From Phocaeicola paurosaccharolyticus JCM 15092 (GTDB lineage Bacteria > Bacteroidota > Bacteroidia > Bacteroidales > Bacteroidaceae): DNA of 64,000 nt. The DNA lies in the NCBI RefSeq assembly GCF_000613805.1, contig NZ_BAJR01000001.1:1-64000 (forward strand), read 5' to 3'. The notes beneath the pieces are model-generated. The model saw only the letters and a program-made list of their open reading frames with translations. It had not been told where the DNA came from and ran no database searches. Position 1 is the stretch's first letter. Each line of letters opens with the position of its first letter. A program made the translations under genes and the position numbers. This document shows positions 7,830 through 42,472 of the stretch, in pieces.

Positions 7830-8838
7830 ATGAAGATAGGTATTCTTACATCAGGAGCGACTGCCCTGGGATAAATGCAACAATCAGAGGCGTTTGCAAA
7901 ACAGCCATCAATAATTATGGCATAGAAGTTTATGGCATCCATAGCGGATTCCGTGGATTATTGGATAACGAAATAGAGCTTCTTACTGACAAGTCATTAT
8001 CCGGCTTACTCAATATGGGCGGTACTATACTTGGCACATCACGTGAGAAACCTTTTAAGAAGAAGGGCTCCACTGTTGATGAGGATAAGGTGAATACAAT
8101 GTTAAGCAACATTGAGAAGGCTAATTTGGAGTGCATTGTATGTATAGGTGGAAACGGAACTCAAAAGACTGCTGCTAAACTTGCAGAAACTGGCGTAAAT
8201 GTAATCTCTATTCCAAAAACAATTGATAACGATGTCTGGGGTACAGATGTCTCATTCGGTTTTGACTCTGCAGTAACTATTGCTACAGATGCTATAGACA
8301 GACTTCACTCAACAGCAAGTCTCATCAGAGGGTGATGGTTATTGAGGTGATGGGACATAAAGCAGGGTGGATAGCTCTCTACTCAGGTATGGCAGGAGGA
8401 GGAGATATAATCCTTATCCCGGAACTTGAGTACGACATACACAACATCGGGAATACTATTATGAACAGACTTAAAAGAGGTAAACCATACTCTATAGTTG
8501 TTGTTGCTGAGGGGATAAAGACAGAGAACAATATGAAGGCTGCACAGTATATAGCAAACGAGATAGAGTACGAGACCGGATTCGAGACTAGAGAGACTGT
8601 ACTAGGATATATACAGAGAGGAGGCTCACCTACTGCTTTCGACCGCAACCTGGCAACAAGGATGGGAGGGCATGCCACAGAGCTTATTATAAATAAGCAG
8701 TTCAATAGGATGGTATCCCTTAATGGTTCGGACATCAGCTCTATACCACTACATGAAGTTGCAGGAAAGCTTAGATTAGTTCCTCAAGATAATGACTTGA
8801 TAATTCAAGGACGTAAGATGGGCATCTGTTTTGGATAG
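7830..8838 (+). pseudogene. pfkA: ATP-dependent 6-phosphofructokinase, two single-base deletions
   Basis: Glycolytic enzyme phosphorylating fructose 6-phosphate to the 1,6-bisphosphate. Restored, it has the nucleotide-loop start MKIGILTSGGDCPGINATIR, then GFRGLL, the core CIGGNGTQKTA and PKTIDNDVWGTD, VIEVMGHKAGWIA, and the end GRKMGICFG. That is about 336 residues, near normal for the family. The frame breaks twice. At about 7854-7858 one G is missing from GGAGGCGAC, giving an early TAA. At about 8319-8321 one T is missing, which produces TGA. Both repairs recover highly conserved residues. An intact phosphofructokinase is expected in a fermentative anaerobe, so I suspect sequencing error. 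The start is the ATG at 7830, just after GGGAGCA. Confidence 0.9.
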
Positions 8839-12294: not shown

Positions 12295-13312
12295 TTATAG
12301 TTCTCTTCTAAGTTTATAATCACCTCTTATCTTTTCAAAATTTTCAGGTTTGCTCTTAAGCACAGCGCTATCTTCAAGAGGATTATAGACCTCAAGGAAA
12401 TTATACCCCTCATTGTAATAATCTGATCCCTTATTGAAAGGTGATGGGGGCAGGGAAAGATATATAAGATTATTCAGCCAAAGAATTGGCATAATGAGAG
12501 TAGCGAGCTACGAGTAGCATTAATCTTTCCATCGGCCGAGTATCCTGCTATATGAGGAGTTGAAATATATGCCATATTCAATAGCCTCATATCAATATGA
12601 GGTTCATTCTCCCATACATCGATAATTGCATCTGATACTTTTGAAGATGAAATGTTTTCTATCAACAAAGGTGTATCTATAACCTCACCTCTTGACGTGT
12701 TTATTATATAAGGTCTTCTTTTTAATGATGAAAAGAAGTTAGCATCGGCGAGATGATATGTAGAATGCTTTCCATCCTTTGTCAAAGGCGTGTGAAAAGT
12801 GATTACATCTGCCTTCTCCATGATCTCATTCAGTTCTACGAACCTTCTTCGCCATCATCCTTTCTAGGAGGGTCGTTGAGCAAAACTTTCATACCAAGTT
12901 CACCTGCAACTCTCGCAATTCTGCTACCCACATGTCCCACTCCTATAACACCTATTGTTGAATCCTTCAATGAAAGGCCTTTATCTCTCTGTAACAGCAG
13001 AAGAACCGAATGAATGTATTGCTCCACAGCTCCTGAGTTACAACCCGCAGCATTAGTCCACTCTATTCCAGCCCTTTTACAATAAGATGTGTCAATATGG
13101 TCGAAACCGATTGTGGCAGTAGCGATAAATCTCACACTACTACCTTTAAGAAGTTCCTCGTTGCATTTTGTACGGGTTCGGATAACCAATGCATCGGCAT
13201 CTTTTATAATCTCATTGCTGAACTTATCACCCGGAACATAAACAGCAGTGAAGCCCAATAGTTCAAGAGTATCCTTAATATAAGGCACCTTTTCGTCTAC
13301 TATTACTTTCAT
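12295..13312 (-). pseudogene. pdxB: Erythronate-4-phosphate dehydrogenase, two single-base deletions
   Basis: NAD-dependent 2-hydroxyacid dehydrogenase family enzyme of pyridoxal-phosphate synthesis. The reassembled order is the N-terminal substrate domain (MKVIVDEKVPYIKDTLELLG), the Rossmann fold (GVIGVGHVGSRIARVA) and the catalytic region (INTSRGEVID, WENEPHID, STPHIAGYSADGK). The PdxB C-terminal dimerisation segment with YNPLEDS comes last. Frame breaks lie at about 12841-12844 (restores EEGFVELNEIMEKAD) and 12477-12480 (restores CQFFGLNNLIYL), each needing one added base. The reading ends RRELstop. A further shift there would extend it by a few residues, which I cannot decide. The GYSADGK string and the tail favour PdxB over a generic D-isomer dehydrogenase. 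Confidence 0.85.
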
Positions 13313-24785: not shown

Positions 24786-26608
24786 TTATTTTCTAGCACC
24801 TAGATCATCATATACAGTCTGAAGAATAGCTTTTCCTCTATCTATCCTATCTGATGATTCAGATGGATCTTGATATATAACTTTATTAGAGTTATTATCA
24901 TAGACGGTAACTCCAGTACTATCACGGAAAGAAAAACCATTATTAAAAGTATAAAAAGCAAACGGATATTTATAACTACTCGATAAAATATTACGACTGA
25001 AGTTGAACTTAGAATGATCAATACCCAACTGCGCAAGAAGTGTAGCAGACAAATCTGCCTGATTCATTATCTTATCGACAGCCATAGGCTCCTTTATTGC
25101 CCCTCCAAGCCATAACATAGGAATATGGTAGAACTTAGGAAGAGTGTTTAACCCCTCTTTAGGATAATAGAATCCATGATCTGCAACACATATTATAAGC
25201 AGATTATCCCATGCCGGACTTTTCTTCAGCTTATCTATAAATTTCCCAAAACACTCATCTGTATATGCAAAAGCATTTGGTATCTTATCTTTAAGACGGC
25301 TATATGGCACTTCAAAAGGTTCATGGCTGCTCAAAGTCAGGAATCCTGTATGCCATGGTTCTTTTCTCTTTTTCTCTATTTCAGAGAATAGATAATTGAA
25401 AGTGATATTATCATTTACACCCCATGCATTGCTCCTCTGTTCTGATAGAGAGAAATCCTTATCAGCAGTGGTTTTTTGATATCCTTTGCTAAGGAGGTAG
25501 CTCTTCATGTTTGTGAAGTTTATATCTCCTCCATATAGGAAGTCAGTAGTATATCCAACCTTTACAAGTTCATCTGATATAGCCGGAAGAGTCTGACTCT
25601 TAACCGGAAGTTTCATTACAGATGCAGTAGGAAGGCCCAGATACCCGCTTAAGGCACATATTGTACCTCTATCTGTACGATAGCTGTTTGCATAACAGTT
25701 TGTGAAAAATACTCCCTCCTTTGATAAACGGTTAAAATTAGGAGTGACATCCGGCAAACCTCCCAATGGCTCTATGAAAGATGCTCCAAAGCTCTCCATC
25801 AAAATCAACAAAATGTTTGGCTTTTTTGTTTTGAGGACATTGACAATGCTATCTCCGTCACTATTTGGGTAAAGCGCTTCAAACAGTTTCTCTCGCCTAT
25901 CTTCATCAAAGAAATTAAACTCTTCTCCAAAATCCTGAGTCTTATTCAATGATGATAAAAGACTGAAAGTCGGATTTACTGCAGAGTGATTAAGGAACTG
26001 GTCATTAGAAAAATAGACCTGTCCAACATTTGATGTCGACTCTGTAACACCTCCACGTATGAATATGAACAATACACCTGTTGTAAGTAACATCAGCAGG
26101 GACTGTGTCACCTTACGGAATCTTGAGACGAATTTATCAGGAATAATGATTGTGAGCAGATAGCAATAGAGTGCAGCTAGCACAAGCATTGCAATAACTC
26201 TAATAATAATAAATCCCAGTGAAACACTTGCTAAGGCATCTTTGGGGAGTCCATATATAGGAATATAGATGCATCCAATTTAAATCCCCAAAAAGGATAA
26301 AGTCCACTATCTACAACAAAAAGAATGGATATAAAGAGAGCGACAAATATGTTGTATACAAATAATATCTTTTTGAATGGCAACTTCTGTGTAAAGAGTG
26401 AAATTGCCGATAGAAGTAATGGTATAACTGTAAAATACCCTGCTGTAGCAGCATCAAGGCTAGCTCCATTGTACATAACCGATATAAAATCGGATAGTGA
26501 ATATATGTCAAGGTCTCCATCAAGGAGCATAAATATTGGTTTCTGTAGTACAAAGAGAGAAACCAGCATTAAAAAATAGATTATAACAAACCCGATTCTT
26601 GTTTTCAT
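24786..26608 (-). pseudogene. LtaS/EptA-type sulfatase-fold membrane enzyme, one base deleted
   Basis: Alkaline-phosphatase-superfamily transferase. N-terminal membrane helices (MKTRIGFVIIYFLMLVSLFV onward) precede a periplasmic sulfatase domain (NILLILMESFGASF metal site, NSYRTDRGT with the likely Thr nucleophile, LLIICVADHGFYY, LSSHEPF). It probably transfers phosphoglycerol or phosphoethanolamine to envelope glycolipid. The frame is lost at about 26237-26242. One added base turns DSPKMPstop into DSPKDALASVSLGFIIIRVI and joins the two parts, restoring about 607 residues. It lies 18 bp before GT39 and 2 bp after rnhA. Confidence 0.87.
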
Positions 26609-31366: not shown

Positions 31367-32628
31367 TTAATTTTTCTTCAATGATTCCGGAGAAACAAGT
31401 TTATATAGCTTGTCGCTAGGACGAATCTTCTCAGGAACTTTAAATGATACATGTTCCCCTTTTCTGACTATCTCAACAGGTTTAAGGTCAACTCTTGGAT
31501 CTTCCAGATTTAAGAACAGAGCTCCTGTTGTAGGTCCGGTGATAAGAAGTTTCTCACCAACTTTTATCTCTCCAGCTTCAATAAGAAATTCTGCCACGCC
31601 TATATTTGAGAAGTGTTTAATAGCCTTTCCTACATATACTTTTCTCTCAGTAGCCTCTGAACCATAGTTCTTGCTCCATTCACCTAGTCTCTGTCCCAAG
31701 TAATATCCATTCCAGAAACCTCTGTTGAATACAGTCTTCAGCCTCTCATCCCATACCTTAACCTTCTCGTCAGAGAAAGTACCATCAAGACAAGACTTTA
31801 TTGCCTCTTTATAGCACTCTACTACTGTACGTACATATTCAGGTCCTCTTGCCCTACCTTCTATCTTGAACACTCTCACACCTGCATCAATCATTTCGTC
31901 CATGAAGTGGATAGTCTTCAAGTCTTTAGGAGACATTATATATTTATTGTCAACCTCAAGTTCTATATCGCTCTCATTATCTTTTACAGTATACCCTCTG
32001 CGACATATCTGATTACATGCGCCTCGATTTGCCGATACATTCATCTCATGAAGACTCAGGTAGCACTTACCCGAAACAGCCATGCATAGAGCACCATGCA
32101 GAACATCTCTATTCTTACCAAGTCACCCTTAGGGCCTTTTATCTGTTCATTATGTATGGCATCATATATCTTGCGCACCTGTTTCAAATTCAATTCACGC
32201 GCAAGAACAACGACATCAGCAAACTGAGCGTAGAACTTTAAAGCCTGTGCATTACCTATATTTAACTGAGTAGAAAGATGAACCTCCTGTCCTACTTCAA
32301 TACAGTAAGACATAACAGCTACGTCGGCAGCAATAACGGCACTTATCTGAGCTTCTTTAGCTGCATCCACGATTTTACGCATCAACTCAACATCCTCATC
32401 ATATATTATAGTATTGATGGTAAGATAACTCTTTATAGAATGCTCTTCACAGATCTGTGCAATCTCACGCAAGTCATTAATGGTAAATGTATTTGCTGAA
32501 CGTGCACGCATATTCAAACTCTCTATGCCGAAGTAAATAGAGTCGGCACCCGCCTGAATAGCAGCTGCAAGGGATTCACGAGAACCCACAGGAGCCATAA
32601 TTTCAAAATCTTTTATATCCTGTTTCAT
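31367..32628 (-). pseudogene. U32 family peptidase / RlhA-like protein, one base deleted
   Basis: U32 family member; characterised relatives act in tRNA or rRNA hydroxylation rather than proteolysis. The N-terminal TIM-barrel start (EIMAPVGSRESLAAAIQAGADSIYFG) is clear. The cysteine-rich cluster region after the break contains NRGACNQICRRGY, and the C-terminal beta domain has VGEKLLITGPTTG. The frame is lost at about 32096-32100. One added C restores RIEMFCHGALCMAVSGKCY, which supplies the conserved first Cys residues of the cluster. Restored length is about 420 residues. Its promoter faces that of dus. Confidence 0.88.
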
Positions 32629-32699: not shown

Positions 32700-33682
32700 A
32701 TGAAAATACGCAATATTGACTTAGGCAAATATCCTATTTTACTGGCACCAATGGAGGATGTAACCGACCCTGCTTTCCGTCTGTTATGCAAGGAGTTCGG
32801 CGCTGACATGGTATATACAGAGTTCGTATCAAGTGATGCACTCATAAGGTCGGTAGGTAAGACTATGCAGAAACTTAACATAAGCGATACCGAACGTCCA
32901 GTGGCCATTCAGATTTATGGCAAAGAGACAGATGCAATGGTTGAGGCTGCCCAAATTGTAGAGCAGGCTAATCCCGATATTCTAGACCTTAATTTCGGCT
33001 GTCCAGTAAAAAGAGTGGCAGGAAAAGGCGCCGGTTCAGGTATGCTTCAGAACATTCCAAAGATGCTTGAGATAACGAAGGCCGTTGTTGATGCAGTAAA
33101 GATACCTGTCACTGTCAAGACAAGACTGGGATGGGACAATAACAGTAAGATTATAGTCGAGTTGGCAGAGCAGCTTCAAGATTGCGGTATAGAGGCACTG
33201 ACAGTTCATGGAAGAACTCGTGCACAGATGTATACAGGCGAAGCAGATTGGACCTTGATAGGAAAGATAAAAGAGAATCCAAGGATGCGTATACCTATCA
33301 TAGGTAATGGCGACGTAATCACTCCAGAGAGAGCTAAAGAGTGCTTTGATAAGTATGGAGTTGATGCTGTTATGATAGGAAGAGGCAGTTTTGGTCGCCC
33401 ATGGATATTCAAAGAAGTTAAGTACTATTTACAAAATGGCGAAGAAATTGAGCGTTATCTTTCGATTGGAAACTCAATGTCCTTCGCCGACAAGTTCAAG
33501 AGAGCGTTAATCTGCTCGACGAGCGTCGTGGTATTCTTCATGTACGCCGTCACCTTGCTGCTTCTCCAATATTTAAAAATATTCCTAATTTTAAATCTAC
33601 AAGGATAGCTATGTTGCGTGCTGAGACAACCGAAGAGTTATACTCGATACTCGATAAAATAAAAGAGAGTTATTACCTATAA
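32700..33682 (+). pseudogene. dus: tRNA-dihydrouridine synthase, one base deleted near the C-terminus
   Basis: FMN enzyme reducing uridines in tRNA D-loops. Strings LLAPMEDVTDPAFR, the catalytic DLNFGCPVKRVAGKGAGSGML (Cys at about 100), VTVKTRLGWD, LTVHGRTRAQMYTG and VMIGRGSFGRPW are all present. The frame is lost at about 33453-33456. Adding one T restores ERLSFDWKLNVLRRQVQESV and the helical tRNA-binding tail, ending ESYYL with TAA at 33680-33682 instead of the TAG at 33608. Restored length is about 327 residues. It ends 6 bp from the convergent GIN gene. Confidence 0.88.
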
Positions 33683-39103: not shown

Positions 39104-39120
39104 ATGTTATTACAACAGAT

Positions 39121-39184
39121 ATTAATCCTATGACGTAGGATATTAATCCTAAAGCTTAGGACAATAATCCTAAGGCTTAGGATA
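39121..39184. repeat. Palindromic dispersed repeat, copy 2 (three tandem units)
   Basis: Three 21-22-bp units, each built on ATTAATCCTAAxGCTTAGGA: 39121-39141 (centre diverged), 39142-39163 and 39164-39184. Each unit is itself nearly palindromic, and adjacent units can also pair with each other. The GGACAATAATCC junction is identical to that at 12203-12214. It lies between rnr and the small minus-strand ORF and may terminate the latter. Confidence 0.75.
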
Positions 39185-40525: not shown

Positions 40526-42438
40526 ATGAAGGAAGAATTCGAGCTTATAGCCAAGACTTTTCAGGGACTTGAAGAGGTATTGGCAAAAGAACTCACAGAA
40601 CTGGGCGCAGGGGATATTGAGATAGGCCGCCGCATGGTATCGTTTACCGGTGATAAAGAGATGATGTATAAAGCAAACTTTTGTTTGCGCACCGCAATCA
40701 GAATATTAAAACCTATAAAACATTTTACAGCCAACAATGCTGACGAAGTTTACAATGGCATAAAAAATATAAATTGGGAAGATTATTTGGATAATGATAA
40801 GAGTTTCTCTGTTGATTCAGTTGTATTCTCTAATGAATTCCGCCATTCTAAATTTGTGGCATATAAGGTTAAAGACGCCATAGTAGATTACTTCCGTGAA
40901 AAGACAGGCAACCGTCCTTCTGTTAGAATCAACAATCCTGATATTGCAATAAACTTCCACGTTGCAGAGAACAAGTGTACTCTCTCTCTGGATAGTAGTG
41001 GTGAGTCACTGCACCGCCGTGGATATCGCCAGGAAGCTGTTGAAGCTCCACTTAATGAGGTACTTGCAGCAGGAATGATTATGATGACAGGCTGGAATGG
41101 TGAATGTGACCTTATAGATCCGATGTGCGGTTCGGGAACAATACCGATCGAGGCTGCACTCATTGCTCGTAACATCTCTCCGGGAGTATTCAGAAAAGAG
41201 TACGCCTTCGAAAAATGGAATGACTTCGACCAAGATCTGTTCGATAGAGTTTATAATGATGACTCAACAGAAAGAGAGTTCGAACATAAGATATATGGAT
41301 TTGACAACAGCCCTAAGGCAAATGAGATTGCTACTCACAATATAAAGGCTGCAGGTGTAAGCAAAGATATTGTACTACGAATCCAACCATTTCAACAGTT
41401 TGAACAACCTAAAGAGAAGAGCTTAATCATAACCAACCCTCCTTACGGAGAGCGTATATCAACTAATGACCTATTAGGATTATATCAGATGATAGGCGAA
41501 AGATTGAAACACTCTTTTATAGGAAATGAGGCATGGGTATTGAGCTACAGAGCTGAATGTTTTGATCAGATTGGTTTGAAACCATCTGTGAAGATTCCTC
41601 TTTTCAATGGTTCATTGGAGTGTGAATTCAGAAAATATCAAATCTTCGACGGAAAGTTCAAAGAGTTCAAGGCAGACAAAAACGATGGTTCTTTAAATGA
41701 GGGAACATTCGACGGAGGTTCTGACATAAGAAAATCGGACGATTCTAGACCTAGAAGAAGTTTTGGGGATGGTGACGATAAACCAAGAAGAAGCTTTAGA
41801 GACTCAAAGGATGGTGAAAGAAGAAGTTTCTCATCTAGAGAAGATAGACCTAGAAGAAGTTTCGGAGAGTGTGAAGATAAGCCTATAAGAAGCTTCAGAG
41901 ACTCTAAAGATGGCGAAAGAAGAAGTTTCTCATCTAGAGAAGACAGACCTAGAAGAAGTTTCGGAGAGGGTGAAGATAAGCTAGGAGAAGTTTCAGGGAC
42001 TCTAAAGATGGTGAAAGAAGAAGTTTCTCATCTAGAGAAGATAGGCCTAAAAGAAGTTTTGGGGATGGTGACGATAAACCAAGAAGAAGCTTTAGAGACT
42101 CAAAGGATGGTGAAAGAAGAAGTTTCTCATCTAGAGAAGATAGACCTAGAAGAAGTTTCGGAGAGGGTGAAGAAAAACCAAGAAGAAGCTTCAGAGATTC
42201 TAAAGATGGAGAAAAAAGAAGTTTCTCATCTAGAGAAGACAGACCCAGAAGAAATTTCGGAGAGGGCGAAGATAAGCCAAGAAGAAGTTTCAGAGACTCT
42301 AAAGATGGAGAAAGAAGAAGTTTCTCATCTAGAGAAGATAGACCTAGAAGAAGTTTCGGAGAGGGTGAAGATAAGCCTAAAAGAAGCTTCCGTAGTTCGG
42401 ATGACAAACCAAGAAGAACTCCAAAGAGAGATATATAA
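40526..42438 (+). CDS. rlmL: 23S rRNA (guanine-N2) methyltransferase with a long repetitive tail; frameshifted in the repeat
   Basis: THUMP-containing SAM-dependent RNA methyltransferase of the RlmL N-half type. Residues 1-160 hold the ferredoxin-like and THUMP parts. DLIDPMCGSGTIPIEAAL is the SAM-binding motif and ITNPPYGERI the catalytic NPPY motif at about 310. From about residue 390 a disordered tail of 33-residue repeats (KPRRSFRDSKDGERRSFSSR unit) follows. One base is missing at about 41980-41982. Restoring it keeps the repeat in register to PRRTPKRDI and TAA at 42436-42438, whereas the unrepaired frame runs to 42457 with an unrelated acidic tail. It heads the operon with DPP IV, purD and others. 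Confidence 0.88.
41780..42372 (+). repeat. 99-bp minisatellite inside rlmL (six units)
   Basis: Six near-identical 99-bp units, each coding for KPRRSFRDSKDGERRSFSS plus REDRPRRSFGEGED. A partial unit lies before and after. The total is one base short of 6 x 99 because of the deletion. Differences between units are mostly single bases (CED, PIR, PKR, GDGDD, GEEK, RNF variants). Confidence 0.92.
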
Positions 42439-42472
42439 AGATAATAACTATATCTAAATTAATTTATCAGCA

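Follow-up and report, generated by a model that had tools for sequence, protein, structure and literature searches.

What does a gene encode when the end of its reading frame is a tandem repeat that stays open in more than one frame, and when one copy of that repeat is a base short? The question is raised by the RlmL gene of Phocaeicola paurosaccharolyticus JCM 15092, found in the 64,000 nucleotides of DNA analysed here (contig NZ_BAJR01000001.1, positions 1 to 64,000; 'the window' in what follows). The explanation that we favour, and which taken as a whole we consider likely, is that RlmL carries a basic tail grown by duplication, that the missing base is an error, and that the tail would act as a tether to rRNA.

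The RlmL gene and its repeated tail

RlmL starts at 40526, on the forward strand. Its neighbours are a gene for a hexapeptide-repeat protein, which we take to be a serine acetyltransferase, and a gene for a DPP IV-type peptidase. The gap between the former and a gene for an RNB-domain exoribonuclease holds a 21-bp tandem repeat in 3.2 copies (39118-39184).

The core of the protein (40526..41680, forward strand) associates a ferredoxin-like domain, a THUMP domain and a UPF0020 methyltransferase domain. These three RlmL domains are found, in this order, above the Pfam cut-off (PF22020, PF02926 and PF01170), and the solved RlmL chains 3v97 and 3v8v match the core at E 7e-63, over about the first 380 residues of these chains, which supports the identity put forward in the original prediction. 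N/DPPY is the catalytic motif of such methyltransferases; it is present here as NPPY, residues 304-307 (N304-P305-P306-Y307), and is invariant across 14 aligned sequences. Among the best 80 of 344 loci the nearest RlmL, with 88% protein identity, is that of Phocaeicola vulgatus. In Escherichia coli, methylation of 23S rRNA to m2G2445 is an activity of RlmKL (work cited in PMC4041423), and G2445 would be the target here if specificity may be carried over from the E. coli enzyme.

A stretch running from the end of the query to the array start given by TRF (41681..41745, forward strand) joins the core to a 99-bp tandem array of 6.5 copies (41746..42390, forward strand), delineated by TRF, by alignment of the copies and by their identities. 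A 99-bp repeat placed after the methyltransferase domain is what had been predicted. With 88% matches and a TRF score of 1003, it is the top of the five TRF rows in the window. Its copies start at 41746, 41845, 41944, 42042, 42141, 42240 and 42339. TRF also recovers an inner period of 33 bp (19.1 copies, 60% matches), and the encoded 33-residue unit splits into three 11-residue modules, RRSFGEGEDKP, RRSFRDSKDGE and RRSFSSREDRP; an 11-residue RRSF module may have given rise to the 33-residue unit, and this unit to the 6.5 copies. The length of the unit is a multiple of three, whereas on/off contingency by slippage calls for a unit that is not divisible by three.

Alignment of the copies shows that copy 3 (41944..42041, forward strand) has 98 bases, one base being missing after 41980. 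This deletion is flanked by two exact 115-bp copies revealed by comparison of the units (41755-41869 and 42051-42165, hence 41755..42165 overall, forward strand), which begin in copies 1 and 4 and are 296 bases apart. Copies 1 and 4 are identical at 97 of 99 positions. Because the deletion sits between exact repeats, where assembly is hard, the number of copies is uncertain, and it may have been made by the assembly itself, through collapse or expansion, the true tail being shorter or longer. Assembly errors are known to arise at tandem repeats (PMC6868369), and the genome is a draft of 89 contigs displaying several single-base deletions. This has to be set against the substitutions that distinguish copies 1-6 from one another (83-97 identical positions of 98 or 99) and against the presence of TRF arrays in the tails of 31 of 82 relatives, coming from other assemblies. 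An assembly-made copy number is thus possible, if doubtful, and it is compatible with our preferred explanation of a basic tail extended by duplication. As for the six 33-residue units of the original prediction, the DNA does contain them, but the assembly does not place them in a single protein: with copy 3 one base short, only about 2.4 units are read.

Three open frames, one under selection

As a consequence of the base missing in copy 3, the RlmL reading frame leaves the Arg/Ser/Asp frame (hereafter the RS frame) after these 2.4 units or so. The contig open reading frame (40526-42457, 643 residues) is made of 485 residues followed by 158 in another, acidic frame (41981..42457, forward strand), with a pI of 4.8, a net charge of -16 and a KEEVSHLEKIDLEEVSERVKISQEEASETLKM-like sequence running to a stop. 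The RS frame can be resumed past the deletion (41983..42438, forward strand), where its translation gives 151 residues, with a net charge of +17 and a pI of 11.1, ending with KPRRTPKRDI and a stop. The RS part ahead of the deletion, 100 residues, is nearly neutral (net +2). Taken together, the two RS parts would endow the core with a net-basic tail (net +19, pI 10.6) that falls within the range of its relatives, whereas the literal tail of the contig, 258 residues, is acidic (net -14, pI 5.1). A third open frame, of 152 codons, appears in the list of open reading frames on the reverse strand (41949..42407).

Comparison of the copies bears on which of these frames has been selected. There are 27 variable columns over the seven copies, of which 19 fall at third positions of the RS frame, five at second positions and three at first positions. 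For this count the partial copy 7 was extended to 42398, 8 bases beyond the end given by TRF; without those 8 bases, three of the 27 columns, all outside third positions, would be invariant. Both the excess at third positions (19 of 27 columns, binomial P 9e-5) and the values of pN/pS between copies, 0.14 in the RS frame, 4.77 in the +1 frame taken by the contig reading frame and 0.15 in the antisense frame, are indicative figures, as copies exchange sequence and columns are not independent events. Because the copies differ mostly at its third positions, it is the RS frame that has been selected. The low value of the antisense frame is to be expected, its third positions being those of the RS frame as well.

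Why, then, are the other frames open? When the consensus 33-residue unit is back-translated with the codon use of ten genes of the window, the +1 (acidic) frame and the antisense frame are devoid of stops in 20,000 of 20,000 trials. Their openness is therefore a by-product of the encoded amino acids, as had been proposed for the reverse-complement frame. A genuine overlapping gene on the reverse strand is accordingly rejected, both its pN/pS and its openness being what the RS frame leads one to expect. In the real array, the +1 frame meets a single stop among the seven copies, in copy 2, ahead of the deletion. An intact gene would read the RS frame throughout and produce a tail of about 252 residues, while the translation of the contig would have switched to another frame, which owes its openness solely to the amino acids it overlaps.

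Tails of RlmL in related bacteria

The relatives examined are near ones: the best 80 of 344 loci, together with further loci from another search. From 111 rows we removed the window itself (L001, L002), three loci where the contig ends before a stop (L092, L095, L102), one with masked bases (L082) and duplicates, keeping L079 despite its contig ending soon after, which left 85 distinct complete tails besides that of the window. For TRF and for comparison of pairs, loci on the minus strand were also removed, leaving 82 relatives and the window.

Every one of the 85 tails of these near relatives has a pI above 9 (range 9.3-11.2) and a net charge of +2 or more. The basic tails announced for homologues in Bacteroidota are thus well in evidence. 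In length the tails range from 16 to 208 residues, with a median of 105, and the window tail in its RS frame exceeds them all; serine, with a median of 4%, is usually less abundant than in the window tail. The longest other tail, that of L040 (after 4146), has 208 residues with KERSFD and DRKYGD motifs. Internal repetition is widespread: in 21 of the 85 tails the best autocorrelation is higher than in any of 200 shuffles, and TRF finds arrays in 32 of 83 tails, the window included, vs three of 83 cores. In all 32 of these tails the best period is a multiple of three. Among tails, the window array scores highest, the next being 493. Bacteroidaceae RlmL thus has a low-complexity, net-basic and probably disordered tail that would often have grown by in-frame tandem duplication, as several relatives suggest.

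How fast do these tails change? The change in length that had been anticipated is seen between some close relatives: of the 28 pairs whose cores share at least 90% identity, four have tails that differ by more than two residues. Three loci (L045, L050, L062) whose cores are 96-97% identical differ in tail length (106, 130 and 88 residues), as do P. vulgatus and L033 (98 and 59 residues; cores 92% identical). The remaining 24 pairs differ by only 0-2 residues, so that many tails do not change fast.

Beyond the family, an RlmL match is present in 98 of 119 genomes of the order. Counting by eye, and considering only the length of the open frame, we find a frame of at least 450 residues in 14 of the 96 matched genomes that lie outside the family; by the same count this is 12 of the 19 genomes where identity of the core reaches at least 53%, and two of the 77 others. 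Long C-terminal extensions therefore seem to be frequent in the vicinity of Bacteroidaceae and scarce at greater distance. In G500, a genome of the order, two RlmL matches are about equally strong (contigs 66 and 53, 63 and 62% identity); their open frames are 547 and 637 residues long.

It might be argued that such a tail is no more than a tolerated by-product, slippage or recombination adding in-frame repeats to a loosely constrained C-terminus that has no role in RNA binding. The variety of the 85 tails, where neither sequence nor length is conserved, would fit this view, as would the divergent lengths of tails attached to nearly identical cores (96-97%) and the scarcity of long frames outside the family (14 of 96). 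Yet all 85 tails have kept a net-basic composition, and pN/pS between copies is low, both of which speak against this view. We regard the tolerated by-product as a rather unlikely account.

The missing base, error or mutation

To return to the basic tail lengthened by duplication, its reading as a single frame implies that the base lacking in copy 3 is an error. The window as a whole is informative here. It was compared with 178 open reading frames from 200 kb around the P. vulgatus RlmL gene, excluding best hits below 55% identity and hits overlapping a place already used. In the window, five of the 32 genes that could be compared are interrupted by a small change of frame, and so is one of six over the 40 kb that follow on this contig. 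The control, 160 kb of P. massiliensis, has no split gene among 46 comparable ones (Fisher P 0.0095 for five of 32 vs none of 46, and 0.0068 when the next 40 kb is added); P. massiliensis may, however, be a nearer relative of P. vulgatus than the organism of the window. Frameshift-aware alignment, which covered the five split genes and RlmL, places seven shifts in the five genes, every one of them a single-base deletion, and none in the RlmL core. The phosphofructokinase gene (7836-8838) shows two single-base deletions relative to P. vulgatus, which are probably sequence errors; the other four genes (12298-13312, 24792-26608, 31373-32628 and 32700-33679) also display single-base deletions relative to P. 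vulgatus reading frames. We see these split genes as the sign of an indel-prone assembly. With seven such deletions in five of 32 genes of the window vs none of 46 in the control, we take the deletion of copy 3, located between two exact 115-bp repeats that make hard ground for assembly, to be probably an error, of sequencing or of assembly.

Could the deletion nevertheless be real in the strain? The core would then be intact while, in the tail, the basic RS repeats gave way to an acidic repeat which, judged by its composition, may be prone to form helices. A real frameshift would not truncate the protein, as downstream of the deletion no copy of the array has a stop in the +1 frame: the open reading frame runs to 42457, the only +1 stop of the seven copies stands upstream, in copy 2, and the consensus unit never meets one in that frame in 20,000 back-translations. 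Moreover, at the rate of the window, 0.14 deletions are expected in the 758-bp tail, so that the chance of at least one is just 0.13 there, and 0.30 over the whole 1.9-kb reading frame. However, the excess of single-base deletions in the window over the related genome, the fact that none of the 85 other distinct complete tails has a net charge of zero or less, and the pN/pS of 4.77 in the +1 frame all run counter to a real deletion, which we hold to be improbable. On the same grounds (pN/pS, basic tails of relatives, pattern of deletions) an acidic tail is unlikely to be the true product. The literal acidic product of 41981..42457 is probably not real, and the last 158 residues of the RlmL protein predicted from the contig are probably incorrect. 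A bolder proposal, in which the deletion is real and the tail tolerates the shift to the +1 frame, single-base indels replacing a basic tail that binds RNA by an acidic tail and leaving the enzyme untruncated, so that one gene could switch the chemistry of its tail between strains, appears very improbable indeed.

If the base is missing by error, as we prefer to think, there is a lesson here for gene prediction. Because the repeat keeps its other frames open, a single-base error yields a longer and plausible reading frame, with no visible break.

A repeat found in one genome among those searched

The unit was said to be unfamiliar elsewhere, and the searches bear this out. DNA of the array is found in one of 61 genomes of the genus, and the 66-residue double unit, at E up to 1e-5, in one of 399 genomes of the family drawn from a larger group; each time this is the genome of the window. 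In that genome, at E up to 10, the double unit gives four matches, all inside the 99-bp array. A 26-base pattern has no match in viral contigs. Our literature searches returned nothing on RlmL in Bacteroides nor, judging by titles, on disordered RlmL tails; they gave no relevant title on C-terminal extensions of rRNA methyltransferases in Bacteroidetes, and nothing on arginine-rich disorder with rRNA or on Bacteroides arginine-rich low-complexity RNA-binding proteins or DEAD-box proteins.

What the tail might do

Past the shift, the RS frame has low hydropathy and 58% of charged residues. In a charge-hydropathy plot the RS-frame tail lies on the disordered side of the line, where the core does not; the acidic frame lies there too, so that the plot does not separate the frames. 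Composition thus suggests that the tail is probably disordered. A structure model of the 484 residues up to the deletion, based on 14 sequences, is poor throughout, known domains included (mean pLDDT 47.9).

We propose that the tail is a multivalent electrostatic tether. Blocks of arginine and lysine would hold the rRNA of the pre-50S particle near the folded enzyme, while blocks of aspartate and glutamate would keep the binding between tail and rRNA weak and reversible. Such a putative weak, multivalent tether to rRNA would be the most likely role of the tail.

Other RNA-related proteins of the same genome were surveyed at ten loci, comprising five of 19 DEAD matches and five of five pseudouridine synthase matches. 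Two have long extensions (L166, L147), two have short basic ends (L148, L163), in five no extension is seen, and the gene of L157 was not recovered. L166 (contig 89, near 297584) is a pseudouridine synthase, presumably RluB-like, with a long N-terminal stretch rich in R, N, Y and G and repeats such as RPYNGGE. L147 (contig 89, near 185005) is a DEAD-box helicase with a C-terminal tail rich in R, K, D and S.

Comparison with known systems

Four systems invite comparison. Eukaryotic RS-rich proteins are of low complexity and rich in arginine and serine; the RlmL tail differs in that it has no runs of RS dipeptides, its RRSF modules being spaced by acidic residues. With E. coli RlmKL (3v97, 3v8v) the window protein has the RlmL part in common, its residues 7-375 being matched. 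The 703-residue chain of the E. coli enzyme extends beyond the match, into what we take to be its RlmK half, whereas the window RlmL has a low-complexity tail instead.

A third comparison is with Rho of Bacteroides thetaiotaomicron (BtRho), a protein that binds RNA and comes from the same family of bacteria, and which, like RlmL with its probably disordered tail, has a long charged disordered region (PMC13269538). RNA-dependent condensation is reported to be driven by the K/E-rich part of the region, whose composition is kept while its length and sequence vary (PMC13269538). The pattern of RlmL tails agrees with this description. BtRho nevertheless differs: it is another protein, its region combines a K/E-rich part with a prion-like N/Q-rich part, and condensation has been tested there, while the RlmL tail is known from sequence (PMC13269538 for BtRho).

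Closest of all are the other Bacteroidaceae RlmL tails, such as those of P. vulgatus (L032), Bacteroides fluxus (L075) and L103. They belong to the same gene, stand at the same place after the methyltransferase domain, and are likewise net-basic, rich in R, K, E and D and often made of in-frame repeats. They differ in the periods of their best arrays, which include 24, 48, 54, 81 and 114 bp, and in being shorter. The tail of P. vulgatus has the ERRSF motif in common with that of the window, but is without the 99-bp array. The tail of the window appears as an extreme but otherwise ordinary case of a kind of tail that is already known.
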